64,000 nt of DNA, from assembly GCA_913055785.1 (NCBI GenBank), contig CAJXLJ010000004.1:1-64000 (forward strand), read 5' to 3'. A program made the position numbers and the translations under genes. Each line of letters starts with the position of its first letter. Within the stretch, counting starts at the first letter, position 1. The notes under the pieces are model-generated. The model was not told the DNA's origin, did no database searches, and saw nothing but the letters and a program-made list of their open reading frames with translations. This DNA comes from an uncultured Parvularculaceae bacterium. Its GTDB lineage: Bacteria > Pseudomonadota > Alphaproteobacteria > Caulobacterales > Parvularculaceae. Positions 55,721 to 62,136 of the stretch are shown one piece after another.

Positions 55721-58684
55721 CTAAAGCGTCAGCGCCTCATCCAGAAAGGTTTCGAGTTCTTGCTTGTGCCGGCTCATCAGGCCGGTCGCGGGGGACGCAA
55801 AAGACGGACGCCCCACATAGCGCGCGCGCTTGTGTTTGGCGCCAATCTGATCAAGCGCCCATTCGAGATTAGGGTCCATAAAGAACCAGGCGCCCATGTT
55901 TTTCGGCTCTTCCTGACACCAGACCATCTCGGCGTTTTTAAAGCGCTGCAGCTCGTTAATGAGCGAATGAGCCGGGAACGGATAAAACTGCTCAACGCGC
56001 AGAAGATAGACATTGTCGATCCCGCGCTTCTCGCGCTCTTCAAAAAGGTCGTAATACACCTTGCCGGCGCACAGAACGACCCGCTTGATTTTGGCGTCGG
56101 ATACCAGCTTGACGGTTGAGCCCGGATGATACTCGGCATCGTCCCACAAAACCCGGTGGAAAGAAGAGCCCGGCCCCATTTCCTCCAGAGTCGAGACGCA
56201 GCGCTTGTGGCGGAGCAACGACTTCGGCGTCATCAACACCAGGGGTTTCCGGAAATTGCGGCGCATCTGACGGCGCAGGATATGAAAGTAGTTCGCCGGC
56301 GTGGTGCAGTTGGCGACCTGCATATTGTCCTGCGCGCAAAGCTGAAGGAAACGTTCAAGGCGCGCAGAGGAATGTTCCGGCCCTTGCCCTTCATAGCCAT
56401 GCGGCAACAATAGCACGAGCCCGCAAAGGCGCAGCCATTTGCGCTCCCCGGACGACAGGAACTGGTCGATGATGATCTGCGCGCCGTTCACGAAGTCGCC
56501 GAACTGCGCCTCCCACATCACCAGGAATTTCGGGTTGGCGAGCGCATAGCCGTATTCAAAGCCCATCACCGCAAATTCGGAGAGGTTGGAATCGTGCACT
56601 TCAAAGGTCGCGTTGGCGCCGTTTATATGGCGCAGCGGCGTATAGGTTCTTTCGGTTTCCTGATCGATGAAAACCGCATGACGCTGGGAGAAGGTCCCGC
56701 GGCGGGAGTCCTGTCCGGAAAGCCGGACGCCGAAACCGTCTTTTAGCAGCGACCCGAACGCCAGCGCTTCGGCTGTCGCCCAGTCGATCCCCTCGCCGGC
56801 TTCAAGCGTCTTCTTCTTCTGCTCGAGGATACGCGCCAGCGTTTTGTGGATATTGAAATTCTGCGGATAGTGCGTCAGCGCCGCACCGATTTCATTGAGA
56901 TCATCCAGCTCCACCGCGGTATCGCCGCGGCGATCGTCGTCGACCGGCGGCACGAACCCCGACCATTGCCCGTCGAGCCAGTCGGCCTTGTTGGGGCGGA
57001 AGGAATCGGCCGCATCGAATTCATCGCTCAGATAGGCCTTGAAACGCTCGCGCTCGGCTTCGGCTTCACCTGAGGCTATGACGCCCTCGTCTTCCAGTCG
57101 TTGCGCATAAATTTTCCGCGTCGTCGGAAGCGAGCGGATCTTCTTGTACATGAGCGGCTGCGTGAAGCTCGGCTCGTCGCCTTCATTGTGCCCGAACCGG
57201 CGATAACAGAACATGTCGATGACGACGTCCGCGCCAAATTTCTGACGAAACTCGGCGGCGATTTTCGCGGCGTACACGACCGCTTCAGGATCATCGCCAT
57301 TGGCGTGAAAGATCGGCGCTTCGACCGCCTTCGCAACATCCGACGGATAGGGCGAGGAACGCGCGAATTTCGGGCTCGTCGTAAACCCGATCTGGTTGTT
57401 GACGATAAAATGAATGGTCCCGCCGGTCCGATAACCGCGAAGACCCGACAGACCGAAACACTCAGCAACGATTCCCTGACCGGCGAAGGCGGCGTCGCCA
57501 TGCAGCAGAAGCGGCAAAACATGGGTGCGCGGCGTATCGAGGTCGGGCGCTTCGATACGGTCCTGCTTCGAACGCGCCTTGCCGAGCACCACCGGATTGA
57601 CCGCCTCAAGGTGAGACGGGTTGGCCGTCAGCGAAAGGTGAACCTTGTTGCCGTCAAATTCCCGGTCCGATGAGGCGCCGAGGTGATATTTAACGTCGCC
57701 CGATCCGCCGACATCGTCGGGCGTGACCGAGCCGCCGTGAAACTCGTGAAAGATGTGATGGTAGGGCTTGCCCATAACGGCGGCGAGCACATTGAGGCGG
57801 CCGCGATGCGGCATGCCGATGACGATTTCCTTAACGCCGAGGGCGCCGCCGCGTTTGATGATCTGCTCCAGCGCCGGCACCATCGCTTCGCCGCCATCGA
57901 GCCCAAACCGCTTGGTGCCCGTGTATTTGGTGTTGAGAAAGTTCTCGAAACCTTCCGCCTCGATCAGCTTGTTGAGGATCGCCTTCTTGCCTTCCGGCGT
58001 GAAGGATATGTCCTTGTCCGGCCCCTCGATACGCTGCTGCAGCCAGGCCTTCTGTTCCGGGTCGGTGATATGCATGAACTCGACGGCGAAAGTTCCGCAA
58101 TAAGTCCGTCGCAGGATCGCCAGAATTTCCCGAAGGCTCGCAGTTTCAAGACCGAGAACATTATCGATGAAAATCGGCCGGTCCATGTCCGCCTCAGTGA
58201 ACCCGAGCGAGGCGGGATCGAGCTCCGGATGGACTTCGACATTCTCCGGGCGGATGTTCAACGGATCGAGATCGGCGATCAGATGGCCGCGAATGCGATA
58301 GGCGCGGATCAGCATCAGGGCGCGCAGCGAATCCTTCGTCGCCTGATGGATATCTTCAGGCGAGGCGGCCGGGACCCGGTTTTCGATCTTCTTCCTGAGA
58401 ACCTGCTCGGCTTCGCCCCAGTTTCCGTCGAGGGCGGCTGTAAGCTCGCCGTTGCGCGCTGGCGGCCAGTCCTTGCGCGCCCAGCTCGGCCCGGTCGCGC
58501 CCGCCGCGCCGTTGGGCCGGCCCGCTTCTTCCTCGAAAAACCGGCGCCAGTCCTCGCCTACCGCAGCGGGGTCCTGAACATACTCCGCATAGAGTTTTTC
58601 AAGATACTGCGCGTTAGCGCCTGAAAAAATCGTCCGTTCGAGGGCGCTACCGCCTGGCCGGGGCGCCTCGCCATCCTTTGCCAT
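55721..58684 (-). CDS. sucA: 2-oxoglutarate dehydrogenase E1
   Basis: Thiamine-diphosphate decarboxylase of the complex. 987 residues from the ATG at 58684; a TTG at 58735 would add 17 residues of doubtful value. N-terminal [25 protein letters not shown] docks E2; then [11 protein letters not shown]-like segment ([29 protein letters not shown]), [59 protein letters not shown] and [33 protein letters not shown]. First of sucA-sucB in this direction, after sucD. Confidence 0.97.
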
Positions 58685-58785
58685 CACGCGTTCCAACTCT
58701 TCCGCATCGCCGGTTGGCCTACCTAGATACGCCAACCGCTGCGCGTTTCAACGTCAAATCGGCGAGAGTCTGCGCTTTGAGCAGT

Positions 58786-59685
58786 TTATTTTTTGACAAG
58801 CTCGAGAAGTGTCCGGCCCATCGCCGCCGGCGTCGGCGCGACCGCGACCCCGGCCGCGTTCAGGGCCTCGATTTTCGCCGCCGCCGTGTCGTCGGCCCCG
58901 GACACGAGAGCGCCCGCATGGCCCATGCGCCGCCCCGGCGGGGCGGTGACCCCGGCGATGAAGCCGACCGTCGGCTTCTTGACCCTGTTTTCCGCGAGGA
59001 AGCGGGCGGCGTCGGCTTCCGCCGAACCGCCGATCTCCCCGATCATGATAATCGAATGGGTGTCATCGTCGGCGAGGAACATCTCGAGGACCTCGATGAA
59101 GTCGGTCCCCTTGACCGGGTCGCCGCCGATGCCGACGCAGGTTGACTGGCCGAGCCCCGCCATCGTGGTCTGGTGCACCGCCTCATAGGTGAGCGTGCCG
59201 GACCGCGAGATTATGCCCACATGACCTTTCCGGTGGATGTGACCCGGCATGATGCCAATCTTGCACTCTTCGGGCGTGATGACGCCCGGGCAATTGGGGC
59301 CGACAAGCCGGGTCTTTGAGCCGTCGAGCGCGCGCTTGACCTTGACCATGTCGAGAACCGGGATGCCCTCGGTGATGCAGATCACCAGGGGAATCTCCGC
59401 GGAAATCGCCTCGAGGATCGAATCGGCGGCGAAGGGGGGCGGCACATAGATGACGGACGCGTCGGCACCCGTCTTCTCGCGCGCTTCGGCGACCGTATCG
59501 AAAACCGGCAGCGTCGCGCCAGAAGCGGGCTCGCCCGCCTCCCAGGTCACGCCGCCCTTGCCCGGCGTCACGCCGCCGACCATCCTCGTGCCGTAAGCGA
59601 TCGCCTGTTCGGTATGGAAGGTGCCCTGGCTGCCGGTGAGCCCCTGGCAAATGACTTTCGTGTTCTTGTCGACGAGAATGGACAT
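58786..59685 (-). CDS. sucD: Succinyl-CoA synthetase, alpha subunit
   Basis: Makes succinate, CoA and a nucleoside triphosphate from succinyl-CoA. 299 residues. CoA-binding part ([39 protein letters not shown]), Rossmann motif VGPNCPGVI, and phospho-His256 in [17 protein letters not shown] precedes the ATG. It lies 101 bases before sucA but 2.5 kb from its partner sucC, which is unusual. Confidence 0.97.
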
Positions 59686-59829
59686 GAGGTCTCCGGCCGC
59701 AGCGGGTGAGGAATTTTGCTGGTCTTAGCGGCGCCGGCGCGCCGGAGCAACCGTTCCGAACGGGCGTCAGCGCCGCATCCCGCCCGGATTTCGCTTTCAT
59801 CGAGACGTCACGAAACCTTCTTGGCCATG

Positions 59830-59932
59830 CAACACTTCTCTGCGAGAGAGCCCGCGCTTTGGACAAATCCTCCGAGTTCGAAGCCCTCCCGAACTTGACG
59901 CCGCATGAGGATTTTTCCTCATGCGGCTTTTT
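59830..59932 (+). ncRNA. Candidate small RNA with a CCCUCC loop and intrinsic terminator
   Basis: No plus-strand gene lies upstream, yet a full terminator stands at 59901-59932. Going 5' to 3': hairpin TCTCT-GCG-AGAGA (59837-59849); unpaired CCTCC at 59869-59873; hairpin AGTTCG (59875-59880)/CGAACT (59890-59895) with the loop AAGCCCTCC; then the terminator. CCUCC loops that pair with Shine-Dalgarno sites are known from alphaproteobacterial small RNAs. Promoter and 5' end are not identified, so the left limit is a guess. It could instead be a leader attenuator for the gene at 59980. Confidence 0.45.
59901..59932 (+). terminator. Orphan intrinsic terminator
   Basis: An 11-bp perfect stem, CCGCATGAGGA (59901-59911) with TCCTCATGCGG (59916-59926), loop TTTT, followed by CTTTTTC. 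The U-run is only on the plus strand. It is 48 bases before the ATG at 59980 and follows no plus-strand CDS. Confidence 0.85.
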
Positions 59933-59979
59933 CTTGCGTTGCTCTGCGCCTCCTCCATAGTTCGGAAAAAGGAGAAGCC

Positions 59980-60411
59980 ATGACCGCCGATCTCGCCGCG
60001 AAACGCATGGAAACCGTCCGCACGCATATGGCGGAGGAAATCGTCCATAACTTTGACGAGGTGATTGGAACCTTCTCCCATCCGAGATACGAACTCATGG
60101 CGTCCGGGCAGGTGTTCGACGGCGAGGCGGAAGTGCGCGAGTATTATCGCCGTTCCCGCGAGGCGTTTCCCGACCAGCGCAACGAGGTCATCAGCATGCG
60201 CCATGCGGACGATGCGGTGTTCGTCGAATTCTGGCTTATGGGGACCCATAAAGCCCCCTTGCAGACCCCCAATGGGGAATTGCCGCCGACCGGACGCGCC
60301 TTTAAAACGCAGATCTGCGCGATCTTTTTCTTCGAAGGCGAAAAAATCGTCTGCGAGCGCATCTATTACGACCAGCTCAGCATCATGCAGCAGCTGACAG
60401 GCGCGGCCTAG
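59980..60411 (+). CDS. NTF2-like (SnoaL-type/ester cyclase-like) protein
   Basis: 143 residues from the ATG at 59980, with AAGGAG just upstream. NTF2-like fold: MAEEIVHNFDEVIGTFSHPRYELMASGQVFDGEAEVREYYRRSREAFPDQRNEVISMRHADDAVFVEFWLMGTHKAP, LPPTGRAFKTQICAIFFFEGEKIVCERIYYDQLSIMQQLTG. This resembles the ester cyclase/SnoaL polyketide-type subgroup; the substrate is unknown. The only plus-strand gene within the suc region; overlaps the convergent cupin gene by four bases. Confidence 0.85.
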   Translation: MTADLAAKRMETVRTHMAEEIVHNFDEVIGTFSHPRYELMASGQVFDGEAEVREYYRRSREAFPDQRNEVISMRHADDAVFVEFWLMGTHKAPLQTPNGELPPTGRAFKTQICAIFFFEGEKIVCERIYYDQLSIMQQLTGAA

Positions 60412-60782
60412 AGCACGGGCAAATCGGATTTCGTTCGGCCGGAGACATGCTCGCCGGTGTTAAGCGTGCCGGCGCTCTCGATGAGCATGATCCAGCACTC
60501 TTTATCAGCGACCGGCATATGCTCGACGCCGGCGGGCACGACGATGAAATCGCCCTCTTCCATCGCCACATCGTGATCTCGAAAACGCATAGTGAACGCG
60601 CCTTTGACAACGAAGAACGCCTCCTCCACGCCATCGTGATGGTGCCACTCGAACGCACCCTCGATCTTGGCGAGACGTACGTCCTGATCGTTGACCCGCG
60701 CGGCGATATGCGGGGACCACGGCTCGGGGATGCGCTCAAAAGCGGAGAGAATGTTGATTTTCTTCGCAGGCCCGTCGGTCAC
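60408..60782 (-). CDS. Cupin domain protein
   Basis: 124 residues, single cupin barrel: FEWHHHDGVEEAFFVVKG gives the metal motif (His47-49, Glu53) and EGDFIVVPAGVEHMPVADKE the second motif with its His. Small cupins of this type include sugar isomerases and metal-dependent dioxygenases; function unknown. Starts at a GTG overlapping the upstream thioesterase stop (GTGA), so the two are coupled. Confidence 0.85.
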   Translation of the reverse strand: MTDGPAKKINILSAFERIPEPWSPHIAARVNDQDVRLAKIEGAFEWHHHDGVEEAFFVVKGAFTMRFRDHDVAMEEGDFIVVPAGVEHMPVADKECWIMLIESAGTLNTGEHVSGRTKSDLPVL

Positions 60783-61207
60783 ATCGACTTCCTTTCCGGC
60801 GGCGTTTTCTCATAGGCGAGTACGCGCTCGACAAACGCGGGCGGCAGCGGCGCGGTCTCACCGGCGCCGCCGGTCGAATAGACATAAGTGAGCAAGCCTT
60901 CGGCGAGCAGCTCATCGCTGCGATAGATCGCCGTGCGGATGGTCATGGACTTGGTCCCGAGCCTCACGCAGCGCGCTTTCACCTCAAGCATATCGTCGAA
61001 TTTCGCCGGAGCGCGATAGTCCGCTTCAGCATGAACAGTGAAGAAGTCGACCTGATTGCCCGCATCGAAGCCGAGCGCGCGCATCCATTCGGTCATGGCG
61101 ACGTCGAAATAGAGGAAATAGTTGACGTTGAAGACGATCCCTTGCGCGTCGCACTCCCCCCAGCGCACGCGAAGGGGATGGGAGAAGGTGAAATTATCGT
61201 CATTCAT
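60779..61207 (-). CDS. Acyl-CoA thioesterase, 4HBT hot-dog family
   Basis: 142 residues: PLRVRWGECDAQGIVFNVNYFLYFDVAMTEWMRALGF with the catalytic Asp in CDAQGIVFNVNY, the YbgC/4-hydroxybenzoyl-CoA thioesterase pattern, and DYRAPAKFDDMLEVKARCVRLGTKSM. A second such enzyme besides YbgC at 15845. Its substrate is not evident. Overlaps the cupin gene by four bases. Confidence 0.88.
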   Translation of the reverse strand: MNDDNFTFSHPLRVRWGECDAQGIVFNVNYFLYFDVAMTEWMRALGFDAGNQVDFFTVHAEADYRAPAKFDDMLEVKARCVRLGTKSMTIRTAIYRSDELLAEGLLTYVYSTGGAGETAPLPPAFVERVLAYEKTPPERKSM

Positions 61208-61221
61208 AAAACTGCGGGCCG

Positions 61222-62136
61222 TCAGGTTTTTTGATACTTCGCCATGATGGTATGACCGTCTATGGTCTCATGGACGTCTTCGAGATACCGCCGGAAGGCG
61301 TTGCCGCCGCCGAGACGGTAATAGAGCGAACGCAAAAGCCTCGATTTCGGCAAATACTTTTCTTCCATCACTGATTGATACCAGCCGATGCACGCTTTCG
61401 ATAATGGCTCTTTTTCGATTGAAACAAGCTTGATGTCGAAAAAACGCTCAAGCGTCTCCAGCGTCTTCCACCCCCAAAGCGTAACATGGTGCGGCGGCGA
61501 ATTCAGCGGCAAGAGCGGACAATCGCTTAAAAAGGAATCGTTGTTCGGCACGCTCAGCACCAGCGTCCCGCCCGGGCGCAGCGCTCTCAACATCGAATTG
61601 ATAAAGCTCCTGGGGTCATCGACATGTTCGAGAACCTGAAAGGACGCGACGGCGTCATAAGCTTCAGGGTGCTCTTCAGCATGCTGTTCAATCGTCTGGT
61701 CGACGACTGTCAGATTACGCGACTGCGCATTGGACCTGCTGAAGGCGTTGGTTTCGAGCCCTACAGATCGACCGATGTCGTCGCGCGCCAGATCGAGAAA
61801 ATACCCGAAGCCGCAGCCCACATCCAGAACCGCCTCAGCGCCCCGGACCCAGTCGCGCGCCCGCGAAAACTCCCAACGCCTTTCATTATAGTCTTTTTGT
61901 TCCGCATCCCTGGAATAGAGCATCTCGTAGAATGCAGGCGGCCCCGCAAGGCCGCCAGGCCGGAAAAACTCAAGCCCGGTTTCCTCGCATCGCCAGCGCT
62001 CTATCGTCTCAACGCCTGCAAGGAACGGGCTGATATCAGCATCATGCTCGCGCGCATAGGCGGCAATCAACCGGGCTTTATCCAGCTCTCCGACTTTCAC
62101 CGCCGGACCGCCCGTGAGGATGCTGCTGACACTCAT
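61222..62136 (-). CDS. Class I SAM-dependent methyltransferase
   Basis: 304 residues. An N-terminal part with WRCEETGLEFFRPGGLAGPPAFYEMLY precedes the methyltransferase core: AVLDVGCGFGYFLDLARDD (SAM-binding motif I), SFQVLEHVDDPRSFINSMLRALRPGGTLVLSVPN (motifs II-III). Resembles enzymes that modify sugars or glycolipids. Sits between sucC (18 bases) and the thioesterase (14 bases) in the same direction, thus probably read with sucC. Confidence 0.88.
   Translation of the reverse strand: MSVSSILTGGPAVKVGELDKARLIAAYAREHDADISPFLAGVETIERWRCEETGLEFFRPGGLAGPPAFYEMLYSRDAEQKDYNERRWEFSRARDWVRGAEAVLDVGCGFGYFLDLARDDIGRSVGLETNAFSRSNAQSRNLTVVDQTIEQHAEEHPEAYDAVASFQVLEHVDDPRSFINSMLRALRPGGTLVLSVPNNDSFLSDCPLLPLNSPPHHVTLWGWKTLETLERFFDIKLVSIEKEPLSKACIGWYQSVMEEKYLPKSRLLRSLYYRLGGGNAFRRYLEDVHETIDGHTIMAKYQKT

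Follow-up and report, generated by a model that had tools for sequence, protein, structure and literature searches.

C-rich anti-Shine-Dalgarno motifs are exposed by the AbcR (alpha-r15) and CUCCUCCC 'cuckoo' (alpha-r14) RNAs, as they are by the element described here. A further family, alpha-r8 (SisA-D of Caulobacter, MmgR of Sinorhizobium), is defined by the 10-mer 5'-UUUCCUCCCU-3', and SisA represses targets in Caulobacter, likely via this anti-Shine-Dalgarno 10-mer (PMC12559287, accessible part). ChvR of Caulobacter can be likened to the element by description, not by sequence: it is a small RNA (sRNA) under a two-component response regulator that pairs through two sites, one of them with the ribosome-binding region of the target, but the regulator is another one and ChvR is reported to be Hfq-independent and to have a single target (PMC6237742, accessible part). 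Here, we describe what is, in our judgement and not by computation, almost certainly a real and conserved sRNA gene beside sucD of a member of the Parvularculaceae. Judged in the same way, it very likely encodes a trans-acting anti-Shine-Dalgarno sRNA. The overall reading that we favor on balance is that of such an sRNA with an alpha-r8-like layout, induced by PhoB at low phosphate.

The window, i.e. the whole 64-kb stretch of DNA analyzed, belongs to a genome (G000) of 3.26 Mb in 85 contigs. Read from the right, its minus strand carries sucC, genes for a methyltransferase, a 4HBT thioesterase and a cupin, sucD and sucA; the suc names were assigned by sequence and not through a family search. 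Between the cupin gene and sucD, the plus strand carries a SnoaL-like gene (59980-60411) and the sRNA element with the following features:

59794..59822, plus strand: PhoB-type half-site array with 11-bp period, from the comparison of 13 promoters and the block common to G022 and G025
59794-59800, 59805-59811 and 59816-59822, plus strand: half-sites CTTTCAT, ACGTCAC and CCTTCTT, the last one degenerate in the own genome
59830..59835, plus strand: -10-like hexamer CAACAC in conserved alignment columns, with a presumed role as -10 element
59842..59932, plus strand: sRNA gene of about 90 nt, with a putative 5' end and the T-run as 3' end
59856-59864 with 59876-59884, plus strand: conserved hairpin H1, from covariation; its loop AAATCCTCCGA exposes CCUCC at 59869-59873
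59873-59880 with 59890-59897, plus strand: alternative hairpin of the first-pass annotation, from the minimum-energy fold; loop AAGCCCTCC
59884..59898, plus strand: second anti-Shine-Dalgarno core CCCTCCCGAACTTGA, from alignments A1 and A3 and a constrained fold
59900..59932, plus strand: intrinsic terminator with a 12-bp stem (59900-59911/59916-59927), a TTTT loop and a T-run (59928-59932)

The first-pass annotation had proposed an orphan sRNA at 59830-59932 that ends in a perfect 11-bp terminator. The 3' end, the perfect stem and the T-run hold, but the stem has 12 pairs and the 5' end is more likely near 59842, with the -10-like hexamer at 59830-59835. As had been claimed, the terminator follows no plus-strand gene: sucD and the genes for the cupin, the thioesterase and the methyltransferase as well as sucC are all on the minus strand, no plus-strand gene ends at the terminator and the SnoaL-like gene begins only after it. 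The T-run follows the stem on the plus strand only. In the window, each strand has a single place where a perfect stem of at least 11 pairs is followed by a T-run, and none of eight first-order Markov copies of one strand has any; a coarse terminator scan of 58500-61500 gave no excess (3 found vs 3.3 ± 2.0 in shuffles). The other such stem of the window, at 47637-47604 on the minus strand, is also the second-best match of R2, an RNA-only model, at 11.8 bits. R2 finds 59835-59933 at 84.3 bits, the window copy being one of its 11 training sequences. A block like GGTCTTAACNGCGCC...GGNGCAACCG (window 59700-59770) lies upstream of sucD and was seen by eye at many loci of the genus, with or without the sRNA; read along the minus strand, this block is a possible sucD promoter.

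Folding z-scores were -4.9 for 59810-59945 and -5.0 for a stretch of 99 nt, with 0/200 equally stable shuffles each. The first-pass annotation was right about the CCTCC at 59869-59873 and about the loop AAGCCCTCC, which lies at 59881-59889. The second upstream hairpin that it had drawn around this loop is the minimum-energy fold in the window (-39.3 kcal/mol), 0.7 kcal/mol from a constrained fold in which H1 extends to 9 bp (-38.6 kcal/mol). Either fold puts a C-rich motif in a loop, but the second core is fully single-stranded only with H1, from 59885 on in the constrained fold. In the relatives, the covarying fold is H1 instead. Of the seven other single folds, that of L065 alone forms a hairpin (4 bp) at the place of the alternative one, and H1 is wholly or partly the minimum-energy structure in five of eight single-sequence folds as read, not in L038, L049 and L065. 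The single-fold z-scores range from -5.0 to -0.05, the latter for the G031 copy, which is no better than shuffles. RNAalifold with eight sequences recovers H1 and the terminator, with a slightly unfavorable covariation term (+0.56 kcal/mol). In an alignment of 11 sequences, 83.8% of cells pair and 9 of 14 pairs are changed on both sides: 4 of the 7 modelled pairs of H1 (84.4% of cells paired) and 5 of the 7 of the terminator helix. All five measures of covariation were above those of 500/500 shuffles and of all six slid versions, some by a narrow margin; slid partners were 33-55% paired and never above the real structure, one slide coming near it on counts of pairs or types. The slid control leans toward the structure because the latter was derived from the same sequences. 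The covariation supports H1 over the alternative hairpin as the conserved fold.

Eight copies were first recognised by eye upstream of sucD, among 30 sucD loci fetched from the genus and family (one of them, L057, without upstream sequence). R1, a model of promoter and RNA from eight sequences, was run over 62 genomes of the family and gave 12 matches at E ≤6.4e-7: the eight training copies and four new ones in G025, G008, G005 and G065 (E 5.7e-23, 4.7e-15, 1.0e-14 and 6.4e-7; E-values rough). A weak match in G003 (E 0.006) is at the expected place. The block was accepted in 13 of the 62 genomes, with 10 strong copies and a weak one among 28 genomes of the genus and two among 34 outside it. 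Nine R1 matches at E 0.01-0.1 (G027, G020, G022, G080, G029, G004, G028, G018, G025) were not accepted; all but that in G018 were viewed and look protein-coding or generic, the G080 match being a lone Pho-box-like stretch. Applied to 12 further stretches (L070 with only 76 bases) and to 21 sucD loci of the genus and family without a close unit, R1 gave matches below E 0.1 only in L039-L042, the already known copies of G008, G025, G003 and G005. A direct nucleotide search in 60 genomes, the own one included, had two clear matches beside sucD (G004, G020), and most of the other matches in its list, which extended to E 10, look fortuitous.

Over 398 genomes of the order, R2 returned its 11 training copies (10 from the genus, one from G031) and otherwise weak matches. 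The copies held out of its training reached 23.9 bits (G065, E 0.001 in 196 kb) and 14.2 bits (G003, E 0.26). R2 matches were found in 35 genomes, 11 with the training copies and 24 others; 19 of the latter loci were read (L279-L297; those of G009, which is in the genus, G114, G174, G138 and G204 were left out) and look mostly like 3' ends of genes with ordinary terminators. L284 (1493-1584, G232) and L295 (1499-1584, G050), from other families of the order, combine a terminator with TTCCTCCC and are possible alpha-r8-like or 3'-UTR sRNAs; the former follows the end of an ORF that we take to resemble an ammonium transporter. On 24 of 80 named sucD loci, only the copies of G008 and G019 stand out under R2, with L107 at E 0.12.

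The first-pass annotation had named loss of the stems and the loop in relatives that keep the flanking genes as an argument against an sRNA. None of the 13 genomes with a copy shows such a loss. However, R1 has no match in 15 of the 28 genus genomes, several of them incomplete, and sucD was found in 26/28. The unit is absent from G006 and G009 despite alignable flanks and present in G019. In G022 and G025, the shared block starts just before the half-sites and runs through the terminator, and the sequence upstream is not alignable. The unit is kept as a discrete block where the flanks diverge. What is conserved exceeds the element of the first-pass annotation and has a fixed order: half-sites, -10-like hexamer and an RNA of about 90 nt made of H1, single-stranded CCUCCCGAACUUGA and terminator. 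This, together with conservation and covariation, supports the proposal of an orphan sRNA gene with exposed anti-Shine-Dalgarno motifs.

What kind of sRNA is it? The AbcR and 'cuckoo' types favored by the first-pass annotation are not supported: Rfam 15, whose library presumably holds models for both families, gives no match at gathering in the window and four unrelated ones at E up to 10 in 59700-60050, and a sequence search did not find CUCCUCCC in 59842-59932. The closest layout is that of alpha-r8, i.e. hairpin, single-stranded CCUCCC, ACUU-A and terminator, with an anti-Shine-Dalgarno core. Like alpha-r8 genes, the element has a Rho-independent terminator and, in the conserved fold, a single-stranded stretch between hairpin and terminator (the alternative fold of the window is 0.7 kcal/mol better). 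Of the 10-mer, however, only CCUCCC is kept (6/10; the window has AGCCCUCCCG), and there is an extra CCUCC in the hairpin loop. Moreover, the promoter is of PhoB type, and the neighbors are sucD, SnoaL and cupin instead of the N-formylglutamate amidohydrolase gene, whose adjacency is not required of paralogues. A canonical alpha-r8 gene coexists in the own genome (G000:C7:76053-76072, minus strand; hairpin, TTTCCTCCCTATATACTTGA, terminator), and the ORF adjoining it is, by a motif, presumably amidohydrolase-like.

R3, a covariance model from seven canonical alpha-r8 genes of this bacterial family, gives five of the 13 copies 16.7-25.0 bits. The own copy gets 9.8 bits (E 0.6) and ranks third in the window. 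Among 19 control loci with a terminator, five score 15.8-21.2 bits, and two of these are possibly alpha-r8-like. In the reverse test, the own canonical alpha-r8 gene scores 20.6 bits under R2 (E 0.0045 in 135 kb). The R3 scores thus point neither way, and the element is therefore called alpha-r8-like and not a member; strict membership fails. Its descent from alpha-r8 is possible but unproven, and we would judge the chances as even. The alpha-r8 core pattern, with at most one mismatch, occurs in 5/28 genomes of the genus and 3/34 others (one of the three, G035, shows no terminator). The alpha-r8 core in G022 and G025 reads TTTCCTCCCTAACGACTTCA vs CCCTCCCGACTT in several copies of the new family, and both lie between hairpin and terminator. 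Upstream of canonical alpha-r8 genes (L303-L307; G000:C7 near 76053) there are repeated TTGC-N3-GCAA or TGC-N3-GCA palindromes that resemble the reported Caulobacter ChvI motif. The AniA/PhaR sites, said to control mmgR, also resemble these palindromes.

The promoter, on which the first-pass annotation had not committed itself, points to phosphate because its half-sites are of the PhoB type. Their consensus over the 13 promoters, CTGTCACGAAACCGTCGC, is that of a PhoB box with 11-bp spacing; the published consensus is CTGTCAT(N4)CTGTCAT (PMC2573895, accessible part). When the promoters are aligned by a fixed spacing to the RNA, the 18-mer CTGTCAY-N4-CTGTCAY scores 141 of 182 at one offset, vs 81 ± 7 in column permutations (0/5000 as high). 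Moving the offset by 11 bp in either direction gives 128 (up) and 112 (down); these offsets share half-sites with the main one, yet show the repeat array. Across copies, half-site pairs have 9 to 13 of 14 positions in common with the PhoB consensus, the own copy 9/14 at the common offset, where its third half-site is degenerate, and 11/14 for the upstream pair. Two or more CTGTCAY-type half-sites with an 11-bp period are thus present over the 13 promoters taken together, which are not a fully independent sample because R1 included the promoter. The -10-like hexamer is CAACAT in several relatives and CTATAT in G020. If the start is near 59842, the box would overlap the -35 region about 20-25 nt before it. 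In S. meliloti, 33 genes have both a predicted box and a mapped start, and in 16 of them the box covers the -35 region and lies 22-25 nt before the start (PMC3616915, accessible part). Half-sites and spacing thus resemble those of alphaproteobacterial Pho-box promoters, as would the position if our start is right, but here they precede a non-coding RNA and the downstream half-site is GTCGC, not GTCAY.

PhoB (TIGR02154) is above cut-off in 27/28 genomes of the genus, including the own one; there was no match in G005 (89% complete, about 830 contigs), although the sRNA is present. The own genome has 38 Pho-box patterns with at most two mismatches, vs 15 for the reversed pattern, and by inspection at least four precede TonB-receptor-like ORFs (L231, L237, L242, L250); TonB receptors are also included in the PhoB regulon of Caulobacter (PMC11208175, accessible part). 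The G080 stretch matched by R1 has three half-sites with the same spacing before a lipoprotein-like ORF. No convincing Pho box was seen in the 12 phoB stretches scanned. TIGR02136, a phosphate-binding family, failed as a guide to pst genes: it had no match in the own genome, E 1e-10 in 8/28 and cut-off in 0/28. At L237/L238 (G000:C1:56150-56211), two Pho-box-like sites on opposite strands are separated by 44 bp; a TonB-receptor-like ORF lies in front of one, and no ORF of at least 80 residues starts within about 340 bases of the other. In L218 (G000:C3:65000-79500), phoR-, phoU- and phoB-like ORFs follow one another with no pst transporter ORF in between; phoR and phoU were named by inspection.

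On this promoter, we judge it likely that the sRNA is PhoB-controlled. Alternatively, the half-sites are not PhoB sites, and transcription depends on a different response regulator of the OmpR family, such as ChvI or CenR, or on a housekeeping promoter. OmpR-family regulators often use direct repeats, but the reported CenR motif TGA-N8-TGA (PMC9275681 for both, accessible part) does not describe the half-sites; likewise, ChvI drives ChvR in Caulobacter (PMC6237742), but its motif TTGC-N3-GCAA (PMC9731502) does not describe them either. The weak third half-site of the own copy and the presence of phoB in all 15 genus genomes without an R1 match would be easier to understand with another regulator; against this stand the 9 to 13 of 14 positions that the half-sites share with the PhoB consensus. 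We consider another regulator unlikely.

The location of the copies bears on the remaining alternatives. Twelve of the 13 are situated between sucD and the cupin gene or sucC, and in G020 the unit is directly between sucC and sucD on the opposite strand, as expected of a cis-acting antisense RNA acting on the sucC-...-sucD transcript. However, the plus-strand SnoaL gene breaks the row in the window, the unit is about 0.6-1 kb from sucD in G025, G008, G005 and G003, with a gap ORF of 271 residues in G025 and 297 in G005, and perfect antisense pairing would not need conserved CCUCC motifs. In G065, none of the seven query genes matches at the locus and the unit lies between dnaQ-like and secB-like ORFs (named by inspection). 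Antisense action is therefore quite improbable. Because G065 carries the unit away from all seven neighbor genes tested, the guess of the first-pass annotation that the position near sucCD would suit a regulator of uptake or carbon flow is also weak. An even less probable reading is that of a 5' leader or attenuator of the SnoaL-like gene, whose start codon is about 47 nt past the T-run on the same strand; among the 12 copies near sucD, a SnoaL match is found only at the locus of the window, and in the others the next query gene past the terminator is a convergent cupin gene or sucC. Finally, a selfish or chance repeat, or a terminator serving neighbors, is hardly credible. Taken alone, the inverted repeat does give sub-threshold matches to plastid intron models, but the own genome has one full copy (the runner-up, E 0.04, is its stem read from the opposite strand), the T-run is on the plus strand only, and promoter and core are conserved.

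For the trans-acting, PhoB-induced sRNA, we infer expression, PhoB binding, participation of Hfq and direction of regulation as follows. Low phosphate would activate PhoB, which would bind the 11-bp-spaced half-sites standing in for a -35 element. Transcription would begin near 59842 and the RNA would stop at the intrinsic terminator at 59932. The H1 loop would display one CCUCC and a second CCUCCC would be unpaired ahead of the terminator. The two exposed motifs and the analogy to SisA suggest anti-Shine-Dalgarno pairing: the sRNA, probably with Hfq, would pair its CCUCC motifs to GGAGG-type ribosome-binding sites, leading to a translation block or decay for a set of mRNAs. This would be an alpha-r8-like RNA, in the mode of SisA and MmgR, placed under phosphate control.

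Target prediction with the CCUCC motif, as the first-pass annotation had advised, did not bear this out. A search for the exact pattern TCGGGAGG-N(4-9)-ATG covered 11 sRNA-bearing genomes, all but G065 and G003, and gave 96 sites vs 19 in the reversed control; 75 ORF entries of at least 40 residues (shorter only when cut by the end of a stretch) were kept. The most widespread cluster, in 4/11 genomes, is presumably pckA. In a control with 26 starts of this cluster (no match in G010, only a partial one in G027), TCGGGAGG preceded 5/11 in sRNA-bearing and 10/15 in sRNA-lacking genomes, where the starts of G011 and G012 are possibly misplaced. The pckA sites are therefore no evidence of targeting. 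The largest cluster consists of TonB-receptor-like starts (6 sites in 2 genomes) and was rejected; the core of G022 has an A where the C of the pattern needs a G.

In the literature searched, mostly without subscription papers, neither a PhoB-controlled alphaproteobacterial sRNA like this element nor an sRNA study in Parvularculaceae was found; predictions of S. meliloti sRNAs with PhoB-like sites exist (PMC2573895, accessible part). The model predicts an RNA band of about 90 nt that is induced at low phosphate, which is testable. The PhoB response is known mainly for turning genes on. If the model is true, an sRNA in the PhoB regulon would be a means to turn genes off post-transcriptionally, and the case suggests a way in which an RNA layout of the widespread anti-Shine-Dalgarno kind can come to respond to a new signal.
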